64,000 nucleotides of DNA from Demequina soli (GTDB lineage Bacteria > Actinomycetota > Actinomycetes > Actinomycetales > Demequinaceae): assembly GCF_000971195.1 (NCBI RefSeq), contig NZ_BBLZ01000004.1:1-64000 (forward strand). Reading direction: 5' to 3'. This document shows, piece after piece, positions 5,276-60,693 of this stretch. The position numbers were made by a program, and so were the translations under genes. The notes below the pieces were generated by a model. The model saw nothing but the letters and a program-made list of their open reading frames with translations. It was not told the DNA's origin and did not search any database. The first letter of the stretch is position 1. Every line of letters starts with the position of its first letter.

Positions 5276-6364
5276 TCAGGATCGGGCCGCGACGGGCGTG
5301 CTCGGGAGGCTCAGTCCTCCCACGCGCCGCGACCTCAGGTCGCGCACCGTCCCGGCGGACGCGACGCCCCACCCCGCGAGCAGGAGCGCGAAGAGCGCGA
5401 CGGCGAGCACGGAGGCCGCCGCGGCCCCGGTGTGCCCCGCGAGGGACGATGCGCCGGTCACCATCGTGCCGACGGGGAACGTGAACGCCCACCACGCGAG
5501 CGAGAACGGCAGCCCCTCGCGCGCGGTCATCGCCGTCACCGCGGCCGCGATCGCGAGCCACAGCAGCGCGAAGCCCATCACGGGCACGCCGTAGAGCAGG
5601 GCGAACAGCGTGAACGTGGAGGGAGCGATCCCGAGCGCCGGCCCGGCGTGATCGGCGAGCAGCCCCACCGCCGTCACGGACTGACCGAGGGGACCGAGCA
5701 CGATCCACATCGTCGGCACCGTGCGCAGGTCGCCGCGCTGGTGATGCGCGAGGCGCGACCACACCTGAGGGATGATCGCGAACGCCGCCAGCCCCGAGGC
5801 GCCGAACATCGCGTAGCACGCCAGCGCCATCGTCTGCGCGGCGGCGCCGTCGAGGTGGGGCAGCAGCAGCGCCCCCGTGGCGGCCGAGACCATGGGCGGC
5901 ACGACGGGCATCAGCCAGGCGCCCGTCGCCGCATCGGCCCCCACCCGGTGCCGCGTGAACGCGAGCACCGGCACGCCGACCGCGGTCGCGAGGCCCAGCG
6001 CGGTACCCACGATCCAGAGCGCGCCGTCGATCGCGACGGCGGCCGAGCCGAGCAGCGGCGGGGCGACCAGCAGCGTCGCGGCGCCGAAGGCGAGCAGTCC
6101 CATCGCCGGGGCGCCGTAGAAGTGCGCGACGCCGGGATCGAGCAGGTAGCCGCGCACCGCGCCGGGCTCGCGCCGGACGTGAGCGACGGTGCCCGCGAGC
6201 GCCGCCACGAGCACCGCTCCGGCCAGCGCCCACGCGGCCCATGCGAGCGCGTCGAGGCCGGGAAGCCGCACCGGCAGCGAGTGCGCGCCCGTCGCGACGA
6301 TCGACGTGCCCATCACGACCGCGAACCAGTTGGGCGGGACGGGGACGGTGCGCGAGCGGGCCAT
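5276..6364 (-). CDS. TDT-family (TehA/SLAC1-like) membrane transporter
   Basis: Integral membrane protein of 362 residues with about ten hydrophobic segments. It begins with the family-typical PPNWFAVVMGTSIVATG. The family includes tellurite-resistance TehA, dicarboxylate/malate exporters and SLAC1 anion channels, so the likely role is anion export; the substrate cannot be read from sequence. It is divergent from a LysR regulator with 83 bases between them, the usual arrangement for a regulator and its target. An upstream ATG at 6424 would overlap that control region, so ATG 6364 is chosen. Confidence 0.85.
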   Translation of the reverse strand: MARSRTVPVPPNWFAVVMGTSIVATGAHSLPVRLPGLDALAWAAWALAGAVLVAALAGTVAHVRREPGAVRGYLLDPGVAHFYGAPAMGLLAFGAATLLVAPPLLGSAAVAIDGALWIVGTALGLATAVGVPVLAFTRHRVGADAATGAWLMPVVPPMVSAATGALLLPHLDGAAAQTMALACYAMFGASGLAAFAIIPQVWSRLAHHQRGDLRTVPTMWIVLGPLGQSVTAVGLLADHAGPALGIAPSTFTLFALLYGVPVMGFALLWLAIAAAVTAMTAREGLPFSLAWWAFTFPVGTMVTGASSLAGHTGAAAASVLAVALFALLLAGWGVASAGTVRDLRSRRVGGLSLPSTPVAARS

Positions 6365-6419
6365 GACCACAGCCTTCCAAGTCCCACTGGTCGCCGGTAG
6401 TGCGAGAATCATGGCGAAC

Positions 6420-6436
6420 CACAAGCGCAGGTTGTG
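6420..6436. promoter_or_regulatory. Candidate LysR operator
   Basis: Imperfect dyad CACAA-N7-TTGTG centred between the divergent transporter and LysR gene, 12 bases before the LysR start codon. An overlapping dyad AACC-N9-GGTT shares the same centre. LysR-type regulators commonly bind such dyads and regulate the divergent gene. This site is inferred from symmetry and position only. Confidence 0.4.
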
Positions 6437-6447
6437 ACGGAGGCGGC

Positions 6448-7350: not shown

Positions 7351-7361
7351 TCCCGGACGCC

Positions 7362-8159: not shown

Positions 8160-8180
8160 TGTTTTCTCCTTTGATGCAGC

Positions 8181-8210: not shown

Positions 8211-8227
8211 GTGTGCGTCCTGTCGGC

Positions 8228-9235: not shown

Positions 9236-9285
9236 GCCTCGACCCTAGGGGAGGGACGATGCGCGGGTCGCCCGGGCGGCCCGGT

Positions 9286-12376: not shown

Positions 12377-13357
12377 ATGCGCGCCGTCATCGCCGCCCAG
12401 AGCTGGCCCCGCCAGGACTCCGGGACCCTCGCCCCCGATCAGACCGCCCGGATCGTCCGAGATGCCTGGTCCGCGGCCGCTCCGCACGTCGCGCTCGACG
12501 TCGTCGCGACCCCCGCGGGAGGCCCGCGGACGGCCGATGCGTTGGCGGGGGAGACGTGGTCCGTCGGGGGCGCACGGGCACGCCGCGTGGGCACGGTCGC
12601 GGTGCTCGCGCCGGCCTCGGGCGGGCGCTGGGAGCCGGGCGCGCTGAGCGCCGCGCTGCTGGGCCTCGCGGCGGCGGGGGAGACGGGCCGCATCGTCGTG
12701 CCGCTCGGCGACGAGACGCCCGCGGGGGACGCCGTCGACGTGTGGGGCGGCGGCCTCGAGGCCGCCCGCGCCGGGGTCGCGCGCCTCGACGTCGTGGCGC
12801 TCGTGGGCTCGGACCGCCCCCTGCTGGGGTTCACGGGCATGAGCGCGGCCGTCCGGGACGGCCGTGAGCACGATGCGGCGCTCGCCCAGGCCGCCCAGGT
12901 CCAGGAGGAGAGGTGGGCCGCCATCGCGCGGGAGGCCGACCCGGTTGCGGCGCGCCGCACGCTGATCGGACCCGCGCGGCTGTCCGACGAGCCGGGTACC
13001 GGCGCCGCCGGAGGGCTCGCCTACGCGCTCGCCGCGATGGGCGCGCGGCTCGTGCCCGCCGCGCCGGCCGCCGCGGAGCTCGCGGGCCTCGACTCCGCCG
13101 CGCACGACGCCGACGTGGTGGTGGCCGTCACCGAGCGGCTCACCGCGTCGGACCTCGATCACGGGGTCGTCTCCGCCGCATCGTCCCTGGCCGCCCGCCG
13201 GGGCGTGCCGTGCGTCGCCGTCACCTCCCATCTCGCGGTGGGGCGCCGCGACCTGATGGCCGCGGGCGTCGCCTCCGCGCATGAGGCGGAGCCGGGGGAG
13301 GGCGCGCTCGGCGACCAGATCCGTCGCGTCGCGCACACCTGGACCCCGCGCCGGTGA
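12377..13357 (+). CDS. Glycerate-kinase-family protein, divergent
   Basis: 326 residues. The C-terminal half contains the glycerate kinase signature GPARLSDEPGTGAAGGLAYA, followed by ALAAMGARLVP as in that family, and LLGFTGMSAAV earlier. The N-terminal substrate loop of true glycerate kinases (DSFKGSL-like) is not conserved here; the start reads MRAVIAAQSWPRQDSG. Either a paralogue with a changed substrate or an inactive homologue is possible. The next gene overlaps its stop by four bases (GTGA), so the two are translationally coupled. Confidence 0.7.
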   Translation: MRAVIAAQSWPRQDSGTLAPDQTARIVRDAWSAAAPHVALDVVATPAGGPRTADALAGETWSVGGARARRVGTVAVLAPASGGRWEPGALSAALLGLAAAGETGRIVVPLGDETPAGDAVDVWGGGLEAARAGVARLDVVALVGSDRPLLGFTGMSAAVRDGREHDAALAQAAQVQEERWAAIAREADPVAARRTLIGPARLSDEPGTGAAGGLAYALAAMGARLVPAAPAAAELAGLDSAAHDADVVVAVTERLTASDLDHGVVSAASSLAARRGVPCVAVTSHLAVGRRDLMAAGVASAHEAEPGEGALGDQIRRVAHTWTPRR

Positions 13358-18932: not shown

Positions 18933-19012
18933 CCGCGTTCCCCGGCCGCCGCTGTCGGCGGGGCGCGGCACAATGGGGACCGTCGCATCGTCCCCACCGA
19001 CGGGAGCCCCCC

Positions 19013-22818: not shown

Positions 22819-23053
22819 TCTTCCTCCAAGGTCGGGCCGCGGCGCAGGGCGCGACGCGGCCGGGTTTCCGGGAACGCTCCGAGCCTAGCGGGCGGAGCGG
22901 TGTGGGACACCCCTGACAACCGGGCCCGCTGCCAGGGAATTCCGGGTGGACGTTGCGCGGGGCGGGGGAGCGCCCGAGCCGCACCGCGCATCGTCCCCGG
23001 GAACGCCGAAGGGGCGCCGGTCCGAAGACCGACGCCCCTCCTGGACGGTGGTG
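22819..23053. other. Intergenic region between sodA and qcrB
   Basis: 235 bases. It holds the sodA promoter and leader, one exact copy of the dispersed word GGACGATGCG (minus strand, 22987-22996), and the qcrB terminator. I see no small ORF with a ribosome binding site. Confidence 0.6.
23010..23039 (-). terminator. Terminator of the ctaE-qcrCAB operon
   Basis: AGGGGCG (23010-23016) pairs with CGCCCCT (23033-23039), and GGTC pairs with GACC around CGAA, with a small internal mismatch. It begins 15 bases after the qcrB stop. Confidence 0.7.
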
Positions 23054-24676
23054 CTAGTGGTGCGCGTGCTGCGCCTCCGCGAGCTCCTCCGGGGTGACGG
23101 GGGAGATGCGCTTCTCGAAGTAGATGCGCGACAGGCGCTGCTTGAAGCGGTCCCATCGGTATCCCTTGCGACGCACGCCGCGGTCGTTGTACTCGGGCTC
23201 GATCTCGAGGGGGGCGATGTCCTCGTACGACACGAGCATCCAGCGCTCCTGGTCCGTGAGGGGCTCGTGGACCTCGACGTACTCGCCGTGCTCGTGACGG
23301 ACGATGCGGCCCGTCTCCTTGCCGTGCAGGACCAGCTCGCGGTCCTTGCGCTGGAGGCCGAAGCAGATGCGACGGGTGATCCAGAAGGCGAGGGCCGGGA
23401 TGACGAAGATGCCGATGCGGAAGAACTTCGTCAGGTCGTTGAGCGACAGGTGGAACAGGTTCGCGATGATGTCGTTCGAGCCCTCCATCACCAGGATCAC
23501 GTAGAACGTGATGAGGGCGACGCCGATGCCGGTGCGGACCGGGGCGTTGCGCGGGCGGTCGAGCACGTGCTTCTCACCGCGGTCGCCGGTGGCCCAGGAC
23601 TCGATCCACGGGTACAGCGCCACGAAGCCGAAGAACAGGCCCGGCATGATCAGCGCCGGGATGAGGAGGTTGAGGGACAGCGTGTAGCCCCACAGCTCCC
23701 ACTCCATCGGGATGACGTCGAACAGCCAGCCCGGCATGAGGCGCAGCGCGCCGTCGACGAACAGGATGTACCAGTCGGGCTGCGTGCCGGCGGACACGGG
23801 CGACGGGTCGTACGGGCCGTAGTTCCACACCGGGTTGATGGTGAACAGGGCCGCGACCAGCGCGACGATGCCGAACACGACGAAGAAGAAGCCGCCGGCC
23901 TTCGCGGTGTACACGGGGAACAGGGGCAGGCCCACGACGTTCTTGTGGGTGCGGCCGCCGCCCGGGTACTGCGTGTGCTTGTGCAGGAACACCAGGAACA
24001 GGTGCAGCGCGACGAGCACGAGGATGAGGCCGGGCACCAGCAGGATGTGCATGGTGAAGAGCCTCGGGATGAGGATCTCGCCCGGGAACTGGCCGCCGAA
24101 GATCCAGTACGAGATGTACTCGCCGACGATCGGGATCGAGCGGGTGACGCCCTCGATGATGCGCAGGCCGTTGCCGGAGAGCACGTCGTCGGGGAGCGAG
24201 TAGCCGGAGAAGCCCGCCGCGAGCGACAGGATCATCAGCGTGAAGCCGACGAGCCAGTTGAGCTCGCGCGGCTTGCGGAACGCGCCGGTGAAGAACACGC
24301 GCGCCATGTGGGTGACGATCGCGGCCGTGAACAGCAGCGCCGACCAGTGGTGGATCTGGCGCATGAGGAGGCCGCCGGGGACCTCGAAGGACATGTGCAG
24401 CGTCGAGGCGAAGGCCTCGGACATCTCCACGCCCTGCATGGTCGCGAGCGGGCCGTCGTACGTGACCTCGGTCATCGACGGCACGAAGAACGCCGTCAGG
24501 AACACGCCCGAGAGCAGCAGCACGATGAACGAGTACAGCGCGATCTCGCCCAGCATGAACGACCAGTGGTCGGGGAACAGCTTGCGCGCGAAGAACTTGA
24601 AGAAGCCGCCGATCGACGTGCGCTCGTCGACGTAGTTCGCGGTGCCCGCGGCGGCGGAGTCGAGACGTGCGCCCAT
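23054..24676 (-). CDS. qcrB: Cytochrome bc1 complex cytochrome b subunit
   Basis: Di-haem membrane subunit carrying the quinol-oxidation site, 540 residues. It begins with a long N-terminal cytoplasmic segment as in other actinobacteria. Haem-ligand and Qo-site segments include QIHHWSALLF, FSGYSLPDDVLSG and NPVWNYGPYDPSP. The C-terminal extension (about residues 430-540) is hydrophilic and ends HAHH. The ATG overlaps the qcrA stop (ATGA). It is the last gene of the operon. Confidence 0.96.
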   Translation of the reverse strand: MGARLDSAAAGTANYVDERTSIGGFFKFFARKLFPDHWSFMLGEIALYSFIVLLLSGVFLTAFFVPSMTEVTYDGPLATMQGVEMSEAFASTLHMSFEVPGGLLMRQIHHWSALLFTAAIVTHMARVFFTGAFRKPRELNWLVGFTLMILSLAAGFSGYSLPDDVLSGNGLRIIEGVTRSIPIVGEYISYWIFGGQFPGEILIPRLFTMHILLVPGLILVLVALHLFLVFLHKHTQYPGGGRTHKNVVGLPLFPVYTAKAGGFFFVVFGIVALVAALFTINPVWNYGPYDPSPVSAGTQPDWYILFVDGALRLMPGWLFDVIPMEWELWGYTLSLNLLIPALIMPGLFFGFVALYPWIESWATGDRGEKHVLDRPRNAPVRTGIGVALITFYVILVMEGSNDIIANLFHLSLNDLTKFFRIGIFVIPALAFWITRRICFGLQRKDRELVLHGKETGRIVRHEHGEYVEVHEPLTDQERWMLVSYEDIAPLEIEPEYNDRGVRRKGYRWDRFKQRLSRIYFEKRISPVTPEELAEAQHAHH

Positions 24677-25755: not shown

Positions 25756-26540
25756 GAAGAACGGGCTCCGATCCACACGGTGCTGGCGATGATGAGTCCG
25801 AGGGCGACGAGCCACCCCCACATGCCCTCGGCGACGGGGCCGATGGAGCCGAGGCGGAGACCGCCCGGCGAGCCCTGGTCCTGCGCCTTGAGGTAGGCGA
25901 TGATGTCGCGCTTGCCCTCGGGGTCGATGTTCGCGTTGTTGAACACGGGCATCGACTGCGGGCCCGTGAGCATCGCCTCGAAGATGTGGGTCGGGGTGGT
26001 CTCCCAGAGGTTGGGAGCGTACTTGCCCTGCGTGAGCGCGCCGCCACCGCCGATGGAGCCGTGGCACATGGCGCAGTTGGTACGGAAGAGCTCCATGCCC
26101 TTGGCGGGGTCGCCCAGCGCGGGGTCGACCTGCTCGGCCGTCGGGATGGCGGGACCGGCACCGAGCGACGCGACGTACGCCGCGAGCTGGTTGATCTGGT
26201 CCTGGGTGAACTGCGGGCGCTTGGCGATGGCCTGCGGGCCCGAGGCCTGCATCGGCATGCGGCCGGTGCCGACCTGGAAGTCCACGGCGGCGGCGCCGAC
26301 GCCCACGAGGGACGGGGCGACGCCCGTGGTGCCCTGGGCGTCGAGGCCGTGGCACGAGGCGCAGTTGGCGGCGAAGAGCTTCTGTCCCTGGGTCACGTCG
26401 TCGGCGGTCGCCGTGGTGGCGGCGTCGGCGGACGATGCGGTGGAGACGGCGGCGGCGACGCCCGCGATGATCGCGAGCAGCAGCAGGACGAGGACCACCG
26501 GCGCGGCGCGGTGGTAGCGGTGACGTGCGAGTGCGTTCAC
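25752..26540 (-). CDS. qcrC: Di-haem cytochrome c subunit of the bcc complex
   Basis: 262 residues with an N-terminal transmembrane anchor (about residues 14-36), two class I cytochrome c domains and a C-terminal helix. The haem-binding motifs are CASCH and CAMCH. In actinobacteria this subunit replaces a soluble cytochrome c and hands electrons directly to CtaC. It is 10 bases downstream of ctaE. Confidence 0.96.
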   Translation of the reverse strand: MNALARHRYHRAAPVVLVLLLLAIIAGVAAAVSTASSADAATTATADDVTQGQKLFAANCASCHGLDAQGTTGVAPSLVGVGAAAVDFQVGTGRMPMQASGPQAIAKRPQFTQDQINQLAAYVASLGAGPAIPTAEQVDPALGDPAKGMELFRTNCAMCHGSIGGGGALTQGKYAPNLWETTPTHIFEAMLTGPQSMPVFNNANIDPEGKRDIIAYLKAQDQGSPGGLRLGSIGPVAEGMWGWLVALGLIIASTVWIGARSS

Positions 26541-30897: not shown

Positions 30898-30938
30898 ACG
30901 GTGCGTGCCGGCGGAGGGGGACCGCCGGCACGCGCCGT
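30898..30938. terminator. Bidirectional hairpin between convergent genes
   Basis: CGTGCCGGCGG (30904-30914) pairs perfectly with CCGCCGGCACG (30922-30932) around AGGGGGA, and the pairing extends outward with one mismatch. It directly abuts the stop of the FAD oxidase on the minus strand. Confidence 0.75.
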
Positions 30939-32383
30939 CAGCGCCCGGCGCCGTGGCGCCGGAGGACCGTGCCGTCCGGGTCGTAGGTGAGGCGGACGGT
31001 GTCGAGACGGTCCACCGCGGCGCCGACCAGCGTGCGCTGCTCGACGGGGCGTTCGACGAAGTTGGCGTACTGGAGCGCGCCGGTCCAGGGCTCGAGCGCC
31101 TCCAGCGCGGCCTCGACCATCGCCGAGGCCTGGGCGAGCGTGGCCGCAGGGGTGGCGGGGGCCACCGCGACCGCCGCGGCGACGCCGTCGATGCCGGTGA
31201 GCGCCGCATCGTCCAGGGTGCCCGCGGACAGGGCGCCGCCGAGCTGGCGCAGGTCGGCGGCCACGACCCCCGCGCATGCCTCGGAGTCGAGCGCGGCCAG
31301 CCACGCGTCGATCGCGGCGTCGTCGAGCGAGGACAGCACCACGCCCTCCGCCGACCCGGCCGAGGGCTCGGCCGGGTCCATCGCGAGTCGGCCGAGCGCG
31401 TCGGGGGTCACGGGGGAGACGTCGTCGATCACGGGTGCGAGCTCGCGCAGCGGCGCGAGGAGGCGGTCGGCGAGCTCGTCGGACCCGACGATGGCCGCCT
31501 GGACGAGCGTGAACGACCCTCCGCGGATGGCGGCGGGCAGCTCCGGGGCGTCGGGCAGGCGCAGGACGCGGGCGGTCGTCGTGATCTCGCGGGGCAGGTG
31601 GGGCAGCAGCCGCGCCCACGCCTTGAGCACCTCGCCGGCCCGCTCGCGGGGCCACCAGAGGCTTCCGGCGGTGAGGCGTGCGACGTCGACGAGGCGGATG
31701 GTGACCTCGGTGACGACGCCCGCGCCGCCACCCCCACGGAGCGCCCACCAGAGATCCGCGTGCTCGGACGCGGATGCGACGACGACGGCGCCGCCGGGCA
31801 GCGCGACCCGCGCGGAGACGATCGAGCCCGCGCCGAGGCCGTGCAGGCGGCCGAGCCAGCCCACGCCTCCGCCGAGCAGGTAGCCCACGACGCCGACGGT
31901 CGCAGACGATCCGGACAGGCCCGCGAGGCCGTGCCGGGCGGCCGCCTCGATGACGGACCCCCAGGTGGCACCGGCGCCGACCGTGGCCGTGCGGCCGATC
32001 GGGTCGACCGCGACGTACGACAACGCGGAGGTGCGCAGCAGGATGGCGGCGGAGAGGTCGCCGAGCGCGGCGGCGCCGTGACCGGTGCCCTGCGGGGCGA
32101 CGCGGACGTCCATGCGGGCCGCGAGGCGCAGCGTGCGGGCGACGTCGTTCTCGGTGCGCGCGATGACGACCGCGACGGGCCGCTGGTCGACGCCGAGCTG
32201 CCAGGCGGCGCGGGCGGCGTCCCAGTCGGGATCCGACGGCAGCACGACCTCGCCGTCGAGCAGGGCGGCGAGGTCGTCGAGCGCGGCGTCGAGGGTGGCG
32301 CCGGAGAGGCGGGTGCGGGAGGGGTTGGAGACGGTGGTGAGCGGGGATCGTGAGGCCGCGAGGGCATCGGTGGACATGGTCAT
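30938..32383 (-). CDS. FAD-linked oxidase (BBE/PCMH-type)
   Basis: 481-residue flavoprotein with an N-terminal PCMH FAD-binding domain (about 60-235) and a C-terminal BBE-like segment (YANF near 450). The loop APQGTGHGAAALG carries the His that is covalently flavinylated in many relatives. The second attachment Cys of bicovalent members is Ser here (SGSSATVGVVGY). The substrate is unknown; relatives oxidise alcohols or sugars. RBS CGGAGG lies eight bases before ATG 32383. A dyad GACCA-TGC-TGGTC (32411-32423) and a repeated TCGGACA upstream may bind a regulator. Confidence 0.85.
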   Translation of the reverse strand: MTMSTDALAASRSPLTTVSNPSRTRLSGATLDAALDDLAALLDGEVVLPSDPDWDAARAAWQLGVDQRPVAVVIARTENDVARTLRLAARMDVRVAPQGTGHGAAALGDLSAAILLRTSALSYVAVDPIGRTATVGAGATWGSVIEAAARHGLAGLSGSSATVGVVGYLLGGGVGWLGRLHGLGAGSIVSARVALPGGAVVVASASEHADLWWALRGGGGAGVVTEVTIRLVDVARLTAGSLWWPRERAGEVLKAWARLLPHLPREITTTARVLRLPDAPELPAAIRGGSFTLVQAAIVGSDELADRLLAPLRELAPVIDDVSPVTPDALGRLAMDPAEPSAGSAEGVVLSSLDDAAIDAWLAALDSEACAGVVAADLRQLGGALSAGTLDDAALTGIDGVAAAVAVAPATPAATLAQASAMVEAALEALEPWTGALQYANFVERPVEQRTLVGAAVDRLDTVRLTYDPDGTVLRRHGAGR

Positions 32384-37358: not shown

Positions 37359-38738
37359 ATGACCGAGGCTGCCCTGGCGGCGGCGGGCGTCGACTCGTAC
37401 CTCTCCAAGGAGGCGAGGCAGCAGCCGCAGTGGCCCGATGCCGCTGCGCTGCGACGCGCGACCGACCGGCTGACGCAGGTCCCCCCTCTGGTGTTCGCGG
37501 GCGAGGCGGACCGGCTGCGCGAGCAGCTGGCCGCCGCGTCGCGCGGCGACGCCTTCGTGCTCCAGGGCGGCGACTGCGCCGAGATCTTCGCGGAGGCCAC
37601 GGCCGACCGCATCCGCAACAAGATCAAGACCATCCTCCAGATGGCCGTGATCCTCACCTACGGCGCCTCCACGCCGGTCGTGAAGATCGGCCGCATGGCG
37701 GGCCAGTACGCGAAGCCGCGCTCGTCCGACACGGAGACCCGTGACGGCGTGACGCTGCCCGTGTACCGCGGCGACATCGTCAACTCGTCCGGCTTCACGG
37801 CCGACGAGCGCATCCCGGACCCGAACCGCCTCGTCGACGCGTACCACGTGTCCGCGTCGACGCTGAACCTCATCCGGGCCTTCACCCAGGGCGGCTTCGC
37901 GGACCTGCGCCGCGTCCACCAGTGGAACAAGGGCTTCGCGGCGAACCCGGCGTACTCCAAGTACGAGACGTTCGCGAAGGAGATCGACCGTGCGGTGCGC
38001 TTCATGGGCGCCGCGGGCGGCGACTTCGACGCGCTCAAGACGGTCGAGCTGTTCTCCAGCCACGAGGCGCTGCTGCTCGACTACGAGCGGGCCCTCACGC
38101 GGATCGACTCGCGCTCGAACCTGCCGTACGACTGCTCGGCCCACCTCCTGTGGATCGGCGAGCGCACGCGTCAGCTCGACGGCGCGCACGTCGAGTTCCT
38201 CTCGAAGGTGCACAACCCGCTCGCCGTGAAGCTGGGCCCGACCGCATCGTCCGCCGACGCGCTCGCCCTCGCGGAGCGTCTCAACCCCGACAACATCCCC
38301 GGCCGTCTCACGTTCGTCGCCCGCATGGGCGCCGACAAGGTGCGCGACGCGCTGCCCGGGATCGTCGAGGGCGTGCGCGACTCGGGCATCGCGGTGACGT
38401 GGCTCACCGACCCGATGCACGGCAACACGTTCACGTCGGAGTCGGGCTACAAGACCCGCAAGTTCGACACCATCCTCGACGAGGTCACGGGCTTCTTCGA
38501 GGTGCACGAGGCGCTGGGCACCGTCCCCGGCGGTCTGCACGTCGAGCTCACCGGCGACGACGTGACCGAGGTCATGGGCGGCACCGAGCGGATCGACGAC
38601 GAGGGCCTGGCCCGGCGTTACGAGACCAAGGTCGACCCGCGCCTCAACCACCAGCAGTCGCTGGAGATGGCGTTCCTGGTCGCGGACCTGCTCGCCCGCC
38701 ATAAGGCGCGCCTGCCGCAGCAGGAGGAGCTGGCGTAG
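37359..38738 (+). CDS. aroF: Class II 3-deoxy-7-phosphoheptulonate (DAHP) synthase
   Basis: 459 residues, first enzyme of the shikimate pathway, condensing PEP and erythrose 4-phosphate. Class II (plant/AroG-Mtb type) motifs include LQGGDCAE with the metal Cys, KIGRMAGQYAKPRS, and LTDPMHGNT. It starts four bases after the PPi-PFK stop, so the two are one operon linking glycolysis to aromatic synthesis. Followed by a perfect hairpin terminator. Confidence 0.96.
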   Translation: MTEAALAAAGVDSYLSKEARQQPQWPDAAALRRATDRLTQVPPLVFAGEADRLREQLAAASRGDAFVLQGGDCAEIFAEATADRIRNKIKTILQMAVILTYGASTPVVKIGRMAGQYAKPRSSDTETRDGVTLPVYRGDIVNSSGFTADERIPDPNRLVDAYHVSASTLNLIRAFTQGGFADLRRVHQWNKGFAANPAYSKYETFAKEIDRAVRFMGAAGGDFDALKTVELFSSHEALLLDYERALTRIDSRSNLPYDCSAHLLWIGERTRQLDGAHVEFLSKVHNPLAVKLGPTASSADALALAERLNPDNIPGRLTFVARMGADKVRDALPGIVEGVRDSGIAVTWLTDPMHGNTFTSESGYKTRKFDTILDEVTGFFEVHEALGTVPGGLHVELTGDDVTEVMGGTERIDDEGLARRYETKVDPRLNHQQSLEMAFLVADLLARHKARLPQQEELA

Positions 38739-38783: not shown

Positions 38784-38809
38784 CGCGTCTCAGGGGACGA
38801 TGCGCGGCG

Positions 38810-40765
38810 TCAGTTGTACATGAGGACGATCGACGTGCCCTGCTCGACCTGGGCGCCCGGCACGAGCGACTGGTCGACGATCGAGCCCTTCGAGCTCCAC
38901 GGCCACTTCGCGTACAGGGTGACGTCGAGCCCGTCCTTCTGGGCCTGCTTGAGCGCCTTGTCGACGTCGAGGCCGACGTAGTCGTCGACCGTGACGAGCG
39001 GCGGGCCGTCGGACACGGTGATGGTGATCGCGTCGGTGCGGTGCGCCGACGCGTTCGCGGCGGGGGACTGCGCGAAGACCTCTCCCTTGGGGGCGTCGGT
39101 GGTGCGCGCGTGCTCGACCGAGACCACCATGCCGGCGTCGTCGAGGGTGGCCACCGCATCGTCCGCCGTCATCCCCGAGACGTCGGGAACGGTGAGCGGC
39201 GCGGGGCCGCCGGAGACCTCGAGCGCGATCGGGGTGTCGTGGCGCACGCTCTCGCCGGCGGCCGGGGTGATGGACATCACCTGGCCCTCGGGGATGGTGT
39301 CCGAGTAGGTCGACGTGACGTCTCCCACGGGCAGCTCGAGGTCCTTGAGCGTCGCCTTCGCGTCCTTCTCCGACTCGCCGACCAGCGTGGGCACGGTGGT
39401 CATGCGCGGGCCCTTGGAGACGGTGACCGCGACGGTGCCGTGCTCGAGGATCCGGGCCTGCGCGCCGGGGTCCGTGGAGATGACGATGCCCTCGGCGATC
39501 CCGTCGTCGAAGACGCGCGTCACCTGGGGGACCAGGCCGGCGCCCTCGAGGATGGTCTTCGCGTGGTCCTCGGTCTCGGACGCGACGGACGGCACCGTGG
39601 TGTAGGCCCCGGGGCCGATGGAGTTGTACCACCACAGCCCGCCGCCGCCGAGCGCCAGCACGGCGACGAGGATCGCCGCGATCCACCAGCCGGCGCGCCT
39701 GTCGGTGCGGGCGGGCTCCTTGGCCTCCGGGTCGTCGTCGGGCAGCGCCGCGAGCTCGGCGCCCACGGACGGGAACGGGTGGCCCAGGCCGATCGGCAGC
39801 GCGACGGTCGAGCCCGCGGGGGTGGCCGCGAGGACGGCGGTCACGTCGGGGTCCGCGCTGATGGGGGTCGCGCCGGACGGCGGCTCGGCGCGGCGGTCGA
39901 GCGTGGGGTCGTCGAGCAGTCCCTCCACGCGGCGGACCTGCTGGAGCGCGGCGGCGGCGTCCTGGGGGCGCGCGTCGGGCTCGCGCGCCGTGAGGTGCGC
40001 CACGAGCTCGTCGATCTCGGCAGGCAGCCACGGCACCACGGTCGACGGCGCGGGCACGTCCTCGTGGACGTGCTTGGTGGCCACCTGGATCGCGGTGGTG
40101 CCGGTGTGCGGCTGGCGGCCCGTGATCATCTCGTACAGGAGCACCCCGGCGGCGTAGACGTCGGTGCGGGTGTCGGACACCCCGTTGGCGATCAGCTCGG
40201 GGCCGAGGTACGCGACCGTGCCGAGGATGGTGCCGGAGGTGCTCGAGGTGACCTCGGTGACGGCGCGCGCGAGGCCGAAGTCCGCGACGCGGGGGCGGCC
40301 GTCGGCGTCGATGAGCACGTTCTCGGGCTTGACGTCCTGGTGCACGAGGCCCTGGCGGTGCGCCGAGGCGAGCGCGTCGAGCACGTGGTCGAGCGTCTCG
40401 AGCGACTCCCGCAGCGACAGCGTGCCCATGCGCTGGAGCCGCTCGCGCAGGTTCCCGCCCTCGACGAACTCCATGGTGAGGTACGACACGTCGTCGTCGA
40501 TGCCCTGGTCGTAGACCCGCACGACGCCGGGGTGGGTCAGCCGCGCGGCGGCCTTCGCCTCGCGGCGGAACCGCGCGACGAACTCGCGCGAGTTGGGGTC
40601 CACCTCGAGGTGCCGGTGCATGACCTTGAGCGCGACCTCACGCTCGAGGCGGCGGTCGAACGCGAGGTACACGGTGGCCATGCCGCCCGCGGCGACGCGG
40701 TCGCGCACCTCGTAGCGGCCGTCGATGACGCGGCCGAGGAGCGGATCGGTCAGGGTGTCGGACAC
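38810..40765 (-). CDS. PASTA-domain Ser/Thr protein kinase, PknL-like context
   Basis: 651-residue membrane kinase. The kinase domain (about 15-275) has GGMATVYLAFD, the ATP Lys in EVALKVMHR, catalytic loop HQDVKPENVL and DFG in VADFGLARA. One transmembrane helix lies near residues 360-382, followed by four extracellular PASTA repeats that sense peptidoglycan fragments. The HRD Arg is Gln. GTG 40765 is chosen: TAGAAT lies seven bases upstream (complement of 40773-40778), and an earlier ATG overlaps that -10. Neighbours aroF, an Rv2175c-like gene and a polyprenyl synthase match the pknL region of Mycobacterium. Confidence 0.93.
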   Translation of the reverse strand: MSDTLTDPLLGRVIDGRYEVRDRVAAGGMATVYLAFDRRLEREVALKVMHRHLEVDPNSREFVARFRREAKAAARLTHPGVVRVYDQGIDDDVSYLTMEFVEGGNLRERLQRMGTLSLRESLETLDHVLDALASAHRQGLVHQDVKPENVLIDADGRPRVADFGLARAVTEVTSSTSGTILGTVAYLGPELIANGVSDTRTDVYAAGVLLYEMITGRQPHTGTTAIQVATKHVHEDVPAPSTVVPWLPAEIDELVAHLTAREPDARPQDAAAALQQVRRVEGLLDDPTLDRRAEPPSGATPISADPDVTAVLAATPAGSTVALPIGLGHPFPSVGAELAALPDDDPEAKEPARTDRRAGWWIAAILVAVLALGGGGLWWYNSIGPGAYTTVPSVASETEDHAKTILEGAGLVPQVTRVFDDGIAEGIVISTDPGAQARILEHGTVAVTVSKGPRMTTVPTLVGESEKDAKATLKDLELPVGDVTSTYSDTIPEGQVMSITPAAGESVRHDTPIALEVSGGPAPLTVPDVSGMTADDAVATLDDAGMVVSVEHARTTDAPKGEVFAQSPAANASAHRTDAITITVSDGPPLVTVDDYVGLDVDKALKQAQKDGLDVTLYAKWPWSSKGSIVDQSLVPGAQVEQGTSIVLMYN

Positions 40766-40864: not shown

Positions 40865-42220
40865 TCAGCCGAAGCTCCTCATCAGCGCCTTGACGCTGGC
40901 GACGTAGCCGACGGTGTCGGAGTGGTACCCGTGGTCCTTCACGGCGGCCGCGCCCTGGTAGTAGCCGGCGATCGCATCGTCCACCTTGTCGAAGGTGCGC
41001 GTGAGCGAGCGCAGGATCAGGACGCCCGCCGTGACGTTGTCCGACGGGTCGAGCAGGTCGAGGCGGCGGCCCGCCATGTCCGAGGCCCACTGACCCGAGG
41101 TCGGGATGACCTGCATCACGCCGACCGCGTTGGCGGGGGAGACGGCGCGCATGTCGAAGCCGGACTCCTGGTAGGCGACGGCGAGGGCGAGCGTCGCGTC
41201 GACGCCGTGACGGCGCGCGGTGGCCGAGATGAGGTCGCGCATCTCGGCGCGCGTGGGCACCGCGCGCGCGAGCAGGGTGGCCTTGTTGCGGTTGGCGGCG
41301 TCGACGATCGACGAGGCGTACGTGCGCCCCGCGAACGTGTCGCCGACGAGGGCCTTCGGCGTGGCGGGGATGAGCAGGCGCTGGCCGACGTAGATGGTCG
41401 ACGCGTTCGCGAGGCGGTTCTCCCGCGCGATCGTCGCGACGGTGGTGCCGTGGCGCTGCGCGATCTCCGACAGCGTGTCGCCCGCCTTGACCGTGTAGTG
41501 GCCGCGGCTCGCGGTGGACGATGCGGTGGTCGAGCCGCTCGCGCCGCCGGCGGGGGACGCGGCGGGCTTCGCGCCCGGGATCGTGAGGCGCTGCCCGACC
41601 CGGATGAGCGACGCGTTCGCGAGATGGTTGGCGCGCGCGAGGGTCGCGACGGTGGTGCCGTGGTGCTGCGCGATCTCCGACAGCGTGTCGCCCGCCTTGA
41701 CCGTGTAGGTGGCAGAGGCGCGGGCCTGCGTGGACGTGCCGCTCGCGTGCGAGGCGGAGGACGAGGTGCCGCCCGTTCCCGCGCCCGCGCCGTTCCCGCC
41801 GAGGGTGAGGCGCTGCCCGGGGAAGATCAGGGACGCGTTCGCGAGGTGGTTGTCGCGCGCGATCCGCGCCACCGTCGTGCCGTGACGATGCGCGATCTCG
41901 GACAGCGTGTCGCCCGCCTTGACCGTGTAGGTGGCGGACAGGTGGGTCACCTTGGCCGGGGCCGAGGCGCCCCGGTGGTCCGGGATCGTGACGGTGGTGC
42001 CGACGTAGATGGTCGCGCGCGCGTCGAGGTCGTTGGCCGCGACTATCGCGGGGATGGTGGTCCCGTAGCGGTGCGCGAGGGCGGAGACGGTGTCGCCCGG
42101 CTCGACGCGGTGCTGCTCGTCGGCGGCTGCCGCGTCTGCGGTCGCGATGCCGAGCACGGTGACGAGCGCCGCGGTGGTGGCGGTGCGCGCCGCGGACGCG
42201 GGGGTGGACGTCGCTGCCAT
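40865..42220 (-). CDS. Secreted LysM lytic transglycosylase
   Basis: 451-residue cell-wall hydrolase. Signal-peptide-like N-terminus (about 1-32, Ala-rich). Four LysM domains follow; each has (V/E)xAGDT or PGDT and an SEIAHRHGTTV-like core. A C-terminal SLT domain (about 320-451) has catalytic Glu in AVAYQESGFD and NAVGVMQVIPTSG. It cleaves peptidoglycan glycan strands. ATG 42220 has RBS CGGAGG. Upstream are three 9-bp-spaced GTCAC units resembling an MtrA box. LysM repeats 2-4 are nearly identical in DNA. Confidence 0.93.
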   Translation of the reverse strand: MAATSTPASAARTATTAALVTVLGIATADAAAADEQHRVEPGDTVSALAHRYGTTIPAIVAANDLDARATIYVGTTVTIPDHRGASAPAKVTHLSATYTVKAGDTLSEIAHRHGTTVARIARDNHLANASLIFPGQRLTLGGNGAGAGTGGTSSSASHASGTSTQARASATYTVKAGDTLSEIAQHHGTTVATLARANHLANASLIRVGQRLTIPGAKPAASPAGGASGSTTASSTASRGHYTVKAGDTLSEIAQRHGTTVATIARENRLANASTIYVGQRLLIPATPKALVGDTFAGRTYASSIVDAANRNKATLLARAVPTRAEMRDLISATARRHGVDATLALAVAYQESGFDMRAVSPANAVGVMQVIPTSGQWASDMAGRRLDLLDPSDNVTAGVLILRSLTRTFDKVDDAIAGYYQGAAAVKDHGYHSDTVGYVASVKALMRSFG

Positions 42221-43754: not shown

Positions 43755-43872
43755 GCGACCAGCGTAGGGGCGCGCGCGGGACCGGTGTCCCCAGCCCAAG
43801 GCGGCGCGCGCATCGTCCACAGATTCGCCGCGGCCCGATGCGGGACCTCCGGCGTCGGCCCAGGCTGACCGC

Positions 43873-48126: not shown

Positions 48127-48211
48127 AGAAGTCCCACCGTAGGCGCTGACGGCGCGTCCCGCTCGGATGCGCAGGGACGATGCGCGGGCGGGGGAGCAGT
48201 AGCATCGTCCC

Positions 48212-49040: not shown

Positions 49041-49889
49041 TCACGCCGGCGGGCGGTGACGGCGCGCCTCGCGCACGGACCGGATGGTCGCCGCGACGGT
49101 GGTGATGAGCACGGTCAGGAGAACGATGCACGCCCCGGCCCGCGCGACCCAGCCCACCAGCGCATCGTCCGGGGTGCCGTGGAGGCGGCCCTCGCCGATC
49201 CACCACAGCCCCCACGCGACCGCGCCCGCCATCGCCCAGGCGAGGACCGGGCGGGGAGCGAGGTCGCGCGACATGGCGATGCCGAGGAAGGTCGCGGCGA
49301 TCAGCACGCCCACCGCGGCGGGCATGCCGGCGTCCGGCGCGGAGCCGAGCCACCACGCGCCGAGCGCCGTGACGTTCGCGACCGCGGCCACGCTCGCCCA
49401 GCCCAGGTACAGGCCTACGGGGAGGTCGAGCGCGGCGGCCTCGAGCAGCGACGCGGTGCGGCGGCGTACAAGCCCCACCGCCGCGTACCCGAGGCACGCG
49501 ACGAGCCCCGCCATCACCGCGACCGAGGCGAGCAGCCAGCCGTGCTGGATCACAGAGATCCATGCGAAGTTCAGCACCATCGCGCCGAGCATCGGCCATG
49601 CCGCGGCGCGGATGCGAGGGCCGGAGCCGTGGCCGGGCAGCGCCTGCACGACCGCGAACAGCGCGATCCCGCCGTAGATCACCCCCCAGATCGCGAACGC
49701 CTGCGGGGCCGGCGCCACGAGCGTCGCGTCCGAGGCGAGCGCCCCGCCCGCGGCCTCGCCGACGGGCGTGCCGCCGAACCACCCGGCGCCCCACAGGCCG
49801 CCGACGAGCGCGAGCAGCGCGCCCGCCGCCACGAGGCACCGCGCCGCGACGGCGGCGGCGGACAGTCGTGCCTCGGCATCCACGGTCAT
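49041..49889 (-). CDS. Tryptophan-rich sensory (TspO-related) membrane protein
   Basis: 282 residues with about eight hydrophobic segments and frequent Trp. PQAFAIWGVIYGGIALF and LNFAWISVIQHGW resemble the IWxxIY and NxxW patterns of TspO/MBR-like proteins, though the protein is longer than the 150-160 residues of TspO. Ligand unknown; porphyrin or stress-linked roles are known for TspO. RBS GGAAGGG lies before ATG 49889. Confidence 0.7.
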   Translation of the reverse strand: MTVDAEARLSAAAVAARCLVAAGALLALVGGLWGAGWFGGTPVGEAAGGALASDATLVAPAPQAFAIWGVIYGGIALFAVVQALPGHGSGPRIRAAAWPMLGAMVLNFAWISVIQHGWLLASVAVMAGLVACLGYAAVGLVRRRTASLLEAAALDLPVGLYLGWASVAAVANVTALGAWWLGSAPDAGMPAAVGVLIAATFLGIAMSRDLAPRPVLAWAMAGAVAWGLWWIGEGRLHGTPDDALVGWVARAGACIVLLTVLITTVAATIRSVREARRHRPPA

Positions 49890-53961: not shown

Positions 53962-54318
53962 ATGGGACCGTCGGGATACCGGGAGCTCGATCCGGGGCTG
54001 CCGTGGATGGGCGGAGGCATCGTGCCGCGCCGCCTGGCCGCGGACGATGCGCGGGCCGTCCTCGCGTGCGAGTCGCCCCTCGCGCTGGGCATGATGCTCG
54101 CGTACGCGCGCTCCTACGCGGGCCCCCTCGGGGGCGTGGTGCAGGGCACGGTCGCCGGGGCGGTGCTCGCGCTGACGGGCCGTCGGGCCGCGGCGGGCTG
54201 GGCGTGGGCGGGCGCGGGCGCCGCGGGTCTCGGGTTCGTCGAGACGCGGCGACGCGCGCGCCAGTGGGAGGCGGTCGTCGAGTCCCGCCTCGGCGTGCTC
54301 GCGGCGGCCGCGGCGTGA
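53962..54318 (+). CDS. Small hypothetical protein with glycine-rich membrane segment
   Basis: 118 residues. The middle contains two hydrophobic Gly/Ala-rich stretches (GPLGGVVQGTVAGAVLALTG and AGWAWAGAGAAGLGF) and the end is Arg-rich. RBS GAAGGGGAG before ATG 53962. Its stop overlaps the next gene (GTGA). No family recognised. It contains one GGACGATGCG word. Confidence 0.6.
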   Translation: MGPSGYRELDPGLPWMGGGIVPRRLAADDARAVLACESPLALGMMLAYARSYAGPLGGVVQGTVAGAVLALTGRRAAAGWAWAGAGAAGLGFVETRRRARQWEAVVESRLGVLAAAAA

Positions 54319-55181: not shown

Positions 55182-55226
55182 AGGGACGATGCGGCGTCAG
55201 GGTCCGCTTGTACGGCGGTTGAGCGC

Positions 55227-55281: not shown

Positions 55282-57729
<2,448 letters not shown>

Positions 57730-57883
57730 CTGCCACCTCGTTCCATCGGGGTCGGGTCCAGCCCGTATTGTCTCGCGCCCGTCCGACACCGGCGGACAGG
57801 CTCGCGGCCGCCCGGCGCGACCCGCGCATCGTCCCTGGGGACGGCGGGGGTCGGGTGCCCACGAAGGTGAGAGAATATCGGGC

Positions 57884-58459: not shown

Positions 58460-59622
58460 CACCTGCGGACCGGCTCGCTGCCGCGGGCCTGTCCCTGCCG
58501 GACTACGGCGGCCTCGAGCTCGGGGCCGTGCTCCCCGGCGCCCTCGCGGCCGTCGGGGCGGCCGATGCGGTCCTCGCCCGTGACGCCGAGGCCGACCGGG
58601 CGCGGCTCGGGATCCCGCACGCCGACCACGCCGTGGTGGTCCTGCTCGACGGCCTCGGGCACCACCAGCTCGACGCGCGCCGCGGGCACGCGCCGTTCCT
58701 GCGCTCGACCGAGTCCGGCATCGTCACCGCGGGCTTCCCCACGACCACCGCGACGTCGCTCGCGCTGTTCGGCACGGGCCGCGCCTCGGGCGCGACCGGC
58801 ATGACCGGCTACACGGCGCACAACCCACGCACCGGCGAGGCCGCGAACCTCGTGTCGTGGGAGGGCGCCGACGACCCCGAGACGTGGCAGCGCGAGCCCT
58901 CGCTGCTCGCGGCGGCGGCGGGCCGCGGCGTGCCCGTCGCGACCCTCGGCAAGCACCGCTTCGAGGGGTCGGGCCTCACGCGCGCCGCGCTGTCGGGCGG
59001 CGAGTTCGTGGGCGCCGACCGCCTGTCCGACCGCGTCGACGAGGCGATCCGCCGCGCGCGCACGCCCGGGCTCACCTACCTCTACTGGGGTGACATCGAC
59101 GCCGCCGGGCACAGGCACGGCTGGCAGTCGGACGAGTGGGTCGCCGCGCTCGAGGACGCGGACCAGGAGCTGCGGCGTCTGCGCGCGCGCCTGCCGCGCC
59201 ACGCGGTGATGATCGTCACCGCCGACCACGGCATGGTGGACGTCACGGGCGCGCCGCGCTGGGACCTGGGCGCCTCGCCCGAGCTCGCGCGCGACGTGCG
59301 CCTCGTCGCGGGGGAGCCGCGCGCGGTGCACCTGCACATGGACGATGCGTCCCTCGCGCCCGCGGTCGCCGACCGGTGGCGCGGCGTGCTGGGCGACCAC
59401 GCCGCCGTGCTGCTGCGCGCCGAGGCCGTCGAGCTGGGGCTGTTCGGGCCGGTCGCCGGCCACGTCGAGGAGCGCATCGGGGACGTCGTGGTCGCGATGG
59501 CCGGGCGCGCTACCGTGGTGGACTCCCGCACGCAGACGCCGCAGGCGATCGGGCTCGTGGGCGTGCACGGCTCGCTCACGCCGGAGGAGCTGCAGGTCCC
59601 GCTGCTGGTCGCCGAGGGCTGA
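58456..59622 (+). CDS. Alkaline-phosphatase-superfamily phosphodiesterase (nucleotide pyrophosphatase type)
   Basis: 388 residues. Metal-binding and nucleophile motifs of the superfamily are visible: VVLLDGLGHHQL, the catalytic Thr in FPTTTATSLALFG, GDIDAAGHRHGW, TADHGMVDV and GVHGSLTPEE. Probably cytosolic, since no signal peptide is seen. The substrate is unknown. Coupled to the DUF5998 gene by a four-base overlap, the same pair found near parC in Streptomyces. Confidence 0.88.
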   Translation: MTPADRLAAAGLSLPDYGGLELGAVLPGALAAVGAADAVLARDAEADRARLGIPHADHAVVVLLDGLGHHQLDARRGHAPFLRSTESGIVTAGFPTTTATSLALFGTGRASGATGMTGYTAHNPRTGEAANLVSWEGADDPETWQREPSLLAAAAGRGVPVATLGKHRFEGSGLTRAALSGGEFVGADRLSDRVDEAIRRARTPGLTYLYWGDIDAAGHRHGWQSDEWVAALEDADQELRRLRARLPRHAVMIVTADHGMVDVTGAPRWDLGASPELARDVRLVAGEPRAVHLHMDDASLAPAVADRWRGVLGDHAAVLLRAEAVELGLFGPVAGHVEERIGDVVVAMAGRATVVDSRTQTPQAIGLVGVHGSLTPEELQVPLLVAEG

Positions 59623-59640
59623 GCCTCCGGCAGGGTCCCG

Positions 59641-60693
59641 TCAGCCCTGGTCGTTCTTGGCGCCGAAGACGATCTCGTCCCAGCTGGGCACCGACGCGCG
59701 GCCGCGCTTGACGGTGCGGCGCTCGCCGGTGTCGTCGGCCTTGGGCTGCACCACGGGCGCCGGGGCGGGCTCGGGCTCGCTCTCGCGGGCACGGGACGTG
59801 CCGAAGCCGGTCTCGGCCTGACGGGCGCGCGCGGGACCGAAGCCCTCGAACTCCTCGTCGTCGTCCTCGTCCTCCTCGGGCTCCGCCATCGACTCGCGGG
59901 TGCCACGGCGCAGGTCGAGGTCGCTCAGCAGCAGCTCGGTGGCGCTGGGCGCCGGACGGGGCAGCTCGACCGCCTCGGTGACCGGCGCATCGTCCTCCCG
60001 CACCACCGGGGTCGCCTCGGTGACCGGGGCGTGGGGGCGCGAGGGGATGAGCGGGATGGTCGCGTCGGCCTCGGAGTCGCGCACCGCGCTGAGGTGGCGG
60101 CGGGGGATCGGCACGTCGAGCAGCTCGGTCTCGGAGAGCCAGCGGGCCTCCTCGTCCTCGGCGGTCACGGTCCGCGCGGTGTGGTCGAACGTCCACAGGG
60201 CGCGGACGCCGCGGCCGGAGACCTGGTAGTCGGCGGCCACGCGCCACGGGCCGTCGGCCTCGCGCCACGCGTCCCACGCGACGGACTCGGGGTCCACGCC
60301 GCGGGCGGCGAGGCGGTCGGTGACGAGCTCGCCGAGCTGCGGGGCGCTCGGGTCGCGGCCGATGCGCGTCTCGCGCGCGAGGTCCGCGATGTAGGAGCGC
60401 TCGGCGGCCACCGGGCCCTCGTACTTCTCGATCGCGCCGAGCGACATGCCGGTGAGCTCCGCGAGCTCGGCCGCCGTGAGGCCGGCGCGGATGCGCTGCT
60501 GGATCTCGCGCGGGGACAGGGTCGGGGCGTCGGACTCCTCGGGAGCCTCGGCGGCGGCGCGGGCGGGGCGCGTGTAGCGCACGGCGTGGCGCAGCTCGTC
60601 GGTCAGGGGGAGCTCGTAGCGGTCGCCCGACTCGGCCTCCACGATGAGGTGAAGGCCGTCCTCGGAGGGACCTACGAGGGTGAGGCGAGTCAT
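59641..60693 (-). CDS. sepH: Septation protein SepH (DUF3071)
   Basis: 350 residues. The N-terminal DUF3071 domain (1-170) contains the HTH REIQQRIRAGLTAAELAEL followed by TGMSLGAIEKYEGPVAAERS. The middle is a long disordered acidic linker (EEDEDDDEEFEG), and a conserved basic C-terminus ends RASVPSWDEIVFGAK. In Streptomyces and Mycobacterium SepH stimulates FtsZ assembly. CACCCT is six bases before ATG 60693. Confidence 0.93.
   Translation of the reverse strand: MTRLTLVGPSEDGLHLIVEAESGDRYELPLTDELRHAVRYTRPARAAAEAPEESDAPTLSPREIQQRIRAGLTAAELAELTGMSLGAIEKYEGPVAAERSYIADLARETRIGRDPSAPQLGELVTDRLAARGVDPESVAWDAWREADGPWRVAADYQVSGRGVRALWTFDHTARTVTAEDEEARWLSETELLDVPIPRRHLSAVRDSEADATIPLIPSRPHAPVTEATPVVREDDAPVTEAVELPRPAPSATELLLSDLDLRRGTRESMAEPEEDEDDDEEFEGFGPARARQAETGFGTSRARESEPEPAPAPVVQPKADDTGERRTVKRGRASVPSWDEIVFGAKNDQG

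Follow-up and report, generated by a model that had tools for sequence, protein, structure and literature searches.

Neisseria and Haemophilus select DNA for import by "self" tags. A 2025 paper (PMC12616744) gives Neisseriaceae and Pasteurellaceae as the only families from which DNA uptake sequences (DUS) are known, and in Neisseriaceae ComP is the DUS receptor (PMC3630211). Here we describe a ten-base word, GGACGATGCG, in the genus Demequina (Actinomycetota), and we assign a probability of roughly 0.6 to the reading that it is one dialect of a DNA-uptake-sequence-like word family with a role in uptake. The Demequina words as a group are best read as an independently evolved uptake-word system. 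No report of such a word in Actinomycetota appears among the matches listed in a search of open-licence literature, and the papers listed as containing the ten letters of GGACGATGCG deal, to judge by their titles, with subjects such as aptamers and primers.

The word was first noticed in the window, i.e. the whole 64-kb stretch of Demequina soli DNA that was analyzed. Exact matches on both strands number 24, 12 per strand (Table 1); the over-representation claimed by the first-pass annotation stands, but its count of 22 copies, 11 per strand, was low by the two starting at 4323 and 4646. Among the 10-mers that occur 20 times or more in the window, an order-3 model places GGACGATGCG first, with 24 copies where 0.8 would be expected, and 100 dinucleotide shuffles of the window contain a mean of 1.07 copies and a maximum of 4. 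The G+C content is 72.8%, close to the 73% estimated earlier. Each site lies on one strand only and GGACGATGCG differs from its own reverse complement, i.e. the word is non-palindromic. Eight copies fall in the 7.7% of sequence outside the genes found by our own crude gene caller (binomial p = 0.0003), and these are the same eight that had been listed as intergenic.

Table 1. Exact copies of the word in the 64-kb window, with strand and position relative to called genes
Word	Position	Strand	Context
GGACGATGCG	4323..4332	+	within called gene 4223-5239 +; not in first-pass list
GGACGATGCG	4646..4655	-	within called gene 4223-5239 +; not in first-pass list
GGACGATGCG	5444..5453	+	within called gene 5276-6370 -
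GGACGATGCG	9254..9263	+	intergenic
GGACGATGCG	13177..13186	-	within called gene 12587-13357 +
GGACGATGCG	18984..18993	-	intergenic
GGACGATGCG	22987..22996	-	intergenic
GGACGATGCG	23299..23308	+	within called gene 23054-24676 -
GGACGATGCG	26430..26439	+	within called gene 25752-26498 -
GGACGATGCG	31205..31214	-	within called gene 30938-32383 -
GGACGATGCG	38243..38252	-	within called gene 37359-38738 +
GGACGATGCG	38795..38804	+	intergenic, convergent genes either side
GGACGATGCG	39155..39164	-	within called gene 38810-40765 -
GGACGATGCG	40973..40982	-	within called gene 40865-42220 -
GGACGATGCG	41516..41525	+	within called gene 40865-42220 -
GGACGATGCG	43809..43818	-	intergenic, divergent genes either side
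GGACGATGCG	48175..48184	+	intergenic, divergent genes either side
GGACGATGCG	49161..49170	-	within called gene 49041-49889 -
GGACGATGCG	54042..54051	+	within called gene 54007-54318 +
GGACGATGCG	55184..55193	+	intergenic, convergent genes either side
GGACGATGCG	56001..56010	+	within called gene 55282-57729 -
GGACGATGCG	57825..57834	-	intergenic, divergent genes either side
GGACGATGCG	59340..59349	+	within called gene 58456-59622 +
GGACGATGCG	59986..59995	-	within called gene 59641-60693 -

Across the 3.0-Mb genome GGACGATGCG occurs 1475 times (754 on the plus and 721 on the minus strand), compared with 3 copies of the reversed word, and a 448.6-kb sample holds 223 copies where Markov models of order 3, 4 and 5 predict 6.2, 12 and 24. 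The core of the word is CGATGC: single-base variants of the core exceed expectation by a few copies at most, whereas certain substitutions at positions 1, 2, 3 and 10 are over-represented. Of the 238 copies in a 484-kb sample, 78 are not fully within called genes, as opposed to 32 of 364 copies of composition-permuted words (Fisher p = 2e-13), and the noncoding density of 1.8 per kb is five times the coding density. The first-pass annotation had named two observations that would speak against the word, a genome-wide count in line with Markov expectation of third or higher order and a lack of enrichment outside genes; given the excess and the noncoding enrichment, neither applies. Spacing is near random (CV 0.97), and the longest gap between words, which spans 11.6 kb and lies at a surface-polysaccharide-like locus, is no greater than chance would allow (P = 0.34).

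The remaining 160 copies of this sample, two thirds of the total, lie inside genes and are read as DDA (90), ASS (43), RIV (21) or in other frames (6), bearing out the earlier remark that several reading frames are used. The DDA majority is what a coding bias would lead one to expect, whether through runs of Asp-Asp-Ala codons or through codon usage. For the bulk of the copies, however, this explanation is already refuted by the fivefold denser noncoding copies and by a reversed-word count at chance, and word density is lowest, at 0.108 per kb, in the genes with the highest codon scores; we give it next to no weight. No depletion of words was seen in foreign-looking genes, those of lowest codon score.

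The genus-wide distribution of the word is bimodal. GGACGATGCG, referred to as dialect A, is present at 711–1564 copies in 15 of 44 Demequina genomes and at 10–235 in the remaining 29, and reaches at most 60 copies in 52 genomes of other families. A second spelling, GGCCGATGC (dialect C), is present at 584–2018 copies in 18 of the 44, a set that does not overlap with the 15 A genomes, as against 44–110 copies of its reversed word. A third, GCCCGACGC, is present at 1206 copies in G009 and 1101 in G012 (reversed word 100 and 146, respectively), and nine genomes have no clear dialect. The A and C words share the core CGATGC, the core of GCCCGACGC is CGACGC, and the noncoding excess is present in genomes of all three spellings. 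In a four-protein tree of 40 genomes the dialects follow the phylogeny, with the A word also found in a second lineage (G004 and G038) and GCCCGACGC in two non-sister lineages.

Alignment of individual sites indicates how these spellings are related. Where A-word sites align to C genomes with the other eight bases equal, position 3 is C in 35 of 67 cases, versus a background of 2%, and the replacements fall in eight separate site groups; of 103 alignments of GCCCGACGC sites, 22 pair the site with GGCCGATGC, in five site groups. Retention exceeds that of permuted words within dialects (A to A, 673 of 1343 versus 34%; C to C, 447 of 1364 versus 14%) and falls below it between groups (A to C, 29 of 812 versus 17.5%). 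At the aligned sites, one spelling is replaced by another.

A methylation-linked or selfish repeated word, similar to HIP1 and spread by mutation or repair bias, would also produce copies in such large numbers and so widely dispersed. Usual modification sites have lengths unlike that of a ten-base word with clade-following dialects, and one- or two-base differences between clades are a poor match to such a site. HIP1 is in addition palindromic (PMC4390886), and GGACGATGCG is not. We consider this origin very unlikely.

The orientation of the word bears on a different class of explanation. The first-pass annotation had argued against a polar signal from the even strand split; non-polarity is upheld, but that argument carries little force, since polar signals too come out even over two replichores. 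More direct evidence comes from 15 pieces covering about 0.48 of the 3.0 Mb, where there is no local strand heterogeneity of the kind expected if orientation followed the direction of replication (chi-square p = 0.70). Chi and KOPS are polar. Word orientation in spacers likewise shows no bias relative to codirectional neighbors (18 same, 22 opposite, p = 0.64). If GGACGATGCG were a Chi-type recombination hot spot that stops or loads the recombination machinery, DNA import by any route would favor the word, and the biased recombination would also yield dialect rewriting; the absence of local strand heterogeneity and the near-equal orientations in codirectional spacers nevertheless make this improbable, if a little less so than a HIP1-like word.

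Within coding DNA there is a mild preference for one orientation in G000 (94/66, p = 0.03) and in the pooled C genomes (71/40, p = 0.004), and none in other A genomes (75/81). Uptake words often form inverted pairs that act as terminators. Head-to-head pairs of GGACGATGCG at most 60 bases apart number 7 in 484 kb where 1.7 are expected (p = 0.002), or 6 (p = 0.008) if two that flank an N run are one site, and no T run is found in the 21 bases 3′ of them. With so few of these pairs, we do not adopt a terminator role for the word, and we rejected a promoter or RNA signal on the lack of codirectional orientation bias and of bias among spacer classes, the densities being 1.89 per kb in codirectional, 1.97 in divergent and 1.61 in convergent spacers.

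The first-pass annotation had left several functions open (a protein-binding site, a methylation target or a selfish word), but an uptake-sequence-like system was not among them. It is the dialects among relatives that point to one, and several features of uptake words are found here: a non-palindromic word in the 9–12-mer range with hundreds to thousands of copies, far above Markov expectation, both orientations, and core-sharing dialects along the phylogeny. We propose that the cell would import free DNA via a type IV pilus and ComEA/ComEC, and that some putative receptor would prefer a word with the core CGA(T/C)GC, so that word-bearing fragments would be taken up more often. Recombination of the imported fragments would restore the word wherever it arises, and the word could spread in this way, regardless of orientation, until it stood at roughly one copy every 2 kb, densest where coding permits. 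If receptor preference changed in a lineage, sites would be rewritten to the new spelling.

The machinery that accompanies words of the DUS and USS types is present in Demequina: a pilus, ComEC and a ComEA assigned by position alone, adjoining comEC. One operon carries, by Pfam, T2SSE twice, T2SSF, Peptidase_A24, PilM and N_methyl, as for a type IV pilus, and is itself word-poor. PilM is found in 43 of 44 genomes of the genus and ComEC in 46 of 47 of the family; ComEC is also present in 11 of 11 genomes tried at order level and therefore does not discriminate.

Two sets of pilins were considered as candidate receptors. A lone pilin stands beside a metE-like gene in 20 of 20 regions, which were chosen because they hold a second pilin locus. 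AlphaFold2 gave a fair model of it (mean pLDDT 85, pTM 0.68), and Foldseek against the PDB gave matches all with E above 2, none of them usable. Comparison of the 39 of 41 lone pilins extracted (G013 and G027 were left out) shows that closely related A genomes can differ in type, as do the sisters G004 and G038. Pilins of the lone type are also present in G001 and G027, which have no clear word. The lone pilin was therefore rejected as a ComP-like receptor, its type not tracking dialect. The operon pilins of 15 genomes were rejected likewise, with three cassette types among A genomes as judged by eye, and by the same judgment neither the lone pilin nor these operon pilins have sequences that track dialect.

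ComEC may offer a weak lead toward recognition, in that its sequences share seven convergent columns between the two A-dialect lineages, versus none in the mirror-image control. The test, tried on seven proteins, is noisy (lepA 0 versus 5), and on the other switch it gave 12 versus 2 for degV and 7 versus 8 for ComEC.

Beyond the genus, two further families of the order, f17 and f19, carry words as strong, GGATGCCTCG and GTATGCCG, and six of their genomes yielded no PilM and no N_methyl match. The opposite case is that of G047 and G053, where PilM and pilins are present and no comparable word was found in 60 and 80 kb, respectively. No relative emerged when viral contigs were scanned with an ORF from the window, a query that had been called mechanically and was ill suited to the purpose. 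The uncoupling of pilins from dialect and the f17 and f19 words without a type IV pilin found both stand against a simple parallel with known uptake words.

The latter words would fit an intracellular DNA-binding protein, nucleoid-associated or chromosome-organizing, whose site is selected at many places and whose specificity has drifted between clades. Such a site would also be consistent with the enrichment between genes and with within-dialect retention above control. On the other hand, two thirds of copies lie in genes, the spacer densities favor neither promoters nor gene ends, and site rewriting would be difficult to achieve through point selection alone but would follow readily from biased import; we regard a protein site as rather unlikely. 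An extension of the uptake reading is that uptake words arose independently, several times, in Actinomycetota (in Demequinaceae and the two families) and are recognized not by the variable pilins but further along the pathway, at a step common to different pili such as ComEA or ComEC. This extension is tentative and somewhat doubtful.

If the uptake reading is true, uptake words had an independent origin in a high-G+C, Gram-positive phylum, and a comparative approach would be opened to why they evolve. Demequina would offer a direct test, as environmental species with complete, switched and no clear words are found side by side. The pilin uncoupling, should it be confirmed, would mean that recognition happens at a different point than it does in Neisseria. 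Whatever its function, a clade-specific, site-rewriting ten-base word with about 1,500 copies needs explaining.

The Demequina words can be compared with four known systems. Like cyanobacterial HIP1 (PMC4390886), GGACGATGCG is a highly iterated short word, but HIP1 is palindromic and has a link to methyltransferases, and the Demequina word is non-palindromic with clade-specific spellings. Micrococcus luteus (PMC4322843) is likewise actinobacterial and transforms with ComEA and ComEC, although through a Flp pilus where Demequina has a type IV pilus operon; the Flp route is possible in the two word-bearing families where a type IV pilin was not found, and the terms 'uptake sequence' and 'uptake signal' are absent from the text of PMC4322843. 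The Pasteurellaceae USS (PMC12616744) resembles the Demequina words in its hundreds to thousands of copies and in its two dialects with a common inner core, and differs in sequence, phylum and cell envelope. Unlike USS, the A and C words have no AT-rich stretch within the 12 bases that follow; for the G009 word, 16 noncoding copies show T-rich bases at positions +5 and +6. The Neisseriaceae DUS (PMC3630211) differs in sequence and phylum, and in having ComP where no dialect-tracking pilin was found in Demequina. The two systems are alike, however, in an over-represented 10-mer that comes to light in a similar type of search, in core-sharing dialects that run along the phylogeny and in a host with a type IV pilus.

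Exact copies of GGACGATGCG number 24 in the window, 12 on each strand; the even strand split described in the first-pass annotation stands, but its total of 22 (11 per strand) was too low. In 100 dinucleotide shuffles of the window, 1.07 copies are expected and the maximum is 4. The genome containing the window (G000; 3,002,692 bases in 16 contigs) carries 1475 copies in total and only three of the same word reversed. The over-representation claimed earlier also holds against a Markov background, with 223 copies observed in 448.6 kb of G000 and 6.2, 12 and 24 expected from models of order 3, 4 and 5. An order-8 model expects 189 in the same sample, and higher-order expectations lie near the observed count because such models include parts of GGACGATGCG itself. 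Two other words, TCGCGCA/TGCGCGA (82 vs 28 expected) and GGGCTTC (34 vs 8 expected), are likewise in excess over positions 1–64000 of the window.

One-base substitution counts identify CGATGC as the core of the word. Every variant at positions 4–9 has at most 7 copies, apart from C and G at position 7, whose counts of 15 and 19 match their own expectations (18 and 16). At positions 1, 2, 3 and 10 certain variants are enriched, to a maximum of 33 copies versus 10. Noncoding copies show a weak extension: G precedes the word at a frequency of 0.77, and bases three and four after it are G at 0.68 and 0.57. In 484 kb of G000, with genes called by a crude purpose-written script, 160 of 238 copies fall within genes, a density of 0.36 per kb, and the 78 that are not fully in genes reach 1.84 per kb; same-composition permuted words give 32 of 364 for the latter class (Fisher p = 2e-13), which confirms the intergenic enrichment first noticed in the window. 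Coding copies are read in several frames (chiefly three), as had been proposed, the residues derived from computed phases being DDA in 90, ASS in 43, RIV in 21 and others in 6. The suggested lack of polarity is also upheld, since orientations are mixed along the G000 sample (p = 0.70, 15 pieces). Orientation in spacers bears no relation to that of codirectional neighbours (18 same, 22 opposite). Within genes, a slight preference for one orientation is seen in G000 (94 same, 66 opposite) and in pooled genomes of the C spelling GGCCGATGC (71 and 40), and none in other genomes rich in GGACGATGCG, the A genomes (75 and 81).

Spacing is approximately random (CV 0.97), and the longest stretch without the word in the G000 sample, 11.6 kb, has a length within chance; its sequence looks like a surface-polysaccharide locus. 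Head-to-head pairs at most 60 bases apart occur 7 times in 484 kb versus 1.7 expected. Two of the seven are identical and lie on either side of an N run, and may be one stem-loop divided by an assembly gap.

Across the genus, GGACGATGCG reaches 711–1564 copies in 15 of 44 genomes and 10–235 in the other 29; in 52 genomes of other families it never exceeds 60. Some of these assemblies are fragmented, and one (G041) is listed as 50% complete. Forty genomes were sampled around comEC (up to 20 kb each), and in many of those outside the 15, GGCCGATGC ranks among the leading words. Whole-genome counts give 584–2018 copies of it in 18 genus genomes from the GGACGATGCG-low group, against 44–110 for the reversed word; this control is only approximate for the C and third spellings, which are nine bases long. 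The third spelling, GCCCGACGC, has 1206 copies in G009 (control 100) and 1101 in G012 (control 146). We assigned dialect classes from these counts, leaving nine genus genomes without a class. Among the unclassed genomes, GGCCGATGC is in weaker excess in G007, G017, G013 and G032, as is GCCCGACGC in G005 (274 vs 67); G026 favours GGACGATGCC (41-kb sample) and G003 has GCCGACGCTG (13 vs 1.5 in 80 kb). A clear word was not found in 120 kb of G001 or 91 kb of G027; G001 nonetheless has 123 copies of GGACGATGCG and one of its reversal. Residual GGCCGATGC persists in A genomes (664 vs 111 in G021, for example). In a tree of 40 genomes built from the best tblastn segment of each of four proteins, the C-spelling genomes lie on basal branches of the genus, the A spelling marks a single large clade and, separately, the pair G004+G038, and GCCCGACGC occupies two non-sister lineages.

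Aligned sites around comEC and metE, with no more than two loci from any genome, connect the spellings. In the 67 cases where an A word is aligned with a C-dialect genome and the remaining eight bases agree, position 3 is C in 35, A in 29 and G in 3, whereas C occupies 2% of matched background positions; the 35 A-to-C pairs are non-independent and fall into 8 site groups. GCCCGACGC sites match GGCCGATGC, two changes away, in 22 of 103 alignments (5 site groups). Within a dialect, retention is higher than for permuted words (A, 0.501 vs 0.344; C, 0.328 vs 0.138), and between dialects it is lower (A to C, 0.036 vs 0.175; C to A, 0.102 vs 0.175). Within the third spelling 2 of 6 words are retained, the six being all of its within-dialect alignments. 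Judged from these alignments, the pattern of retention and rewriting is what would be left if the preference had changed and biased replacement had then followed.

A type IV pilus operon lies on the same contig, ~66 kb past the window. Pfam matches comprise two T2SSE ATPases (taken to be PilB and PilT), T2SSF (read as PilC), three N_methyl pilins, a Peptidase_A24 prepilin peptidase (read as PilD) and PilM; the operon's 624-residue product has no pilin match. PilM is present in 43 of 44 genus genomes, and N_methyl pilins and ComEC each in 46 of 47 family genomes. A lone pilin of ~138 residues with a variable C-terminal half lies close to a metE-like gene, an arrangement seen in 20 of 20 regions selected for having it. 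As a dialect-linked receptor the lone pilin was rejected, its type being independent of dialect, and so were the operon pilins, of which three cassette types were distinguished by eye among the A genomes examined (15 genomes overall). Pilins differ even between the sister genomes G004 and G038. Cassette types, at least three by eye, are scattered over the genus regardless of dialect, which suggests cassette exchange. When seven proteins were put through a mirror-image convergence test, ComEC had 7 versus 0 convergent columns for the A switch, but lepA had 0 versus 5 for the same switch and degV 12 versus 2 for the other; the tie between ComEC and the A switch is a lead only.

Coordinates of features in the window and in the compared genomes
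Feature	Location	Genome
GGACGATGCG copies absent from the first-pass annotation	4323 and 4646	window
Identical head-to-head pairs flanking an N run	L010:17572-17770	
Longest stretch without GGACGATGCG	L025:5949-17516	G000
Lone pilin near metE-like gene	L073:9587-10003	
Further regions with lone pilin	L074-L092	
Operon pilin cassettes	L193-L206, L020:11043-14542	
Dispersed-word loci, family f19	L150, L159-L163	G066
Dispersed-word loci, family f17	L148, L171, L172	G062

Comparable words occur in two other families of the order. In f19, GGATGCCTCG, a CGGATGCCTCG-like dispersed word, has 1333 copies in G066 (reversed, 1), 389 in G097 and 129 in G082, where the variant CGGATGCCG is found; none of the 96 remaining genomes has more than 28. 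In f17, GTATGCCG is found 2476 times in G062, against a control of 135, and 1251 times in G078 (control 191); no count exceeds 167 among the 97 remaining genomes searched, which include the third f17 genome, G093 (46). The genome's own word is enriched in noncoding DNA in G066 and G062, and barely in G082 (10% vs 8%).

We infer that GGACGATGCG acts in DNA uptake; the main rival is that the word is a binding site for an intracellular protein. Three observations count against a simple parallel with the DNA uptake sequences (DUS) of Neisseriaceae: (i) the DUS receptor is a minor pilin, ComP (PMC12616744), whereas Demequina pilins, lone or operon, do not track dialect; (ii) PilM and N_methyl were not found in the six f17 and f19 genomes, the word-rich ones included, although ComEC is present in all six; and (iii) G047 and G053 possess both pilus families, yet no comparable word was found in 60 and 80 kb of them. 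On the second point, transformation of Micrococcus luteus uses Flp pili, ComEA and ComEC (PMC4322843), and uptake in f17 and f19 could therefore rely on a different type of pilus. Among the matches listed in the open-licence literature, we found no report of such a word in Actinomycetota. In favour of the uptake reading, the DUS of Neisseriaceae were recognised by the same features as those found here for the Demequina word (PMC3630211).
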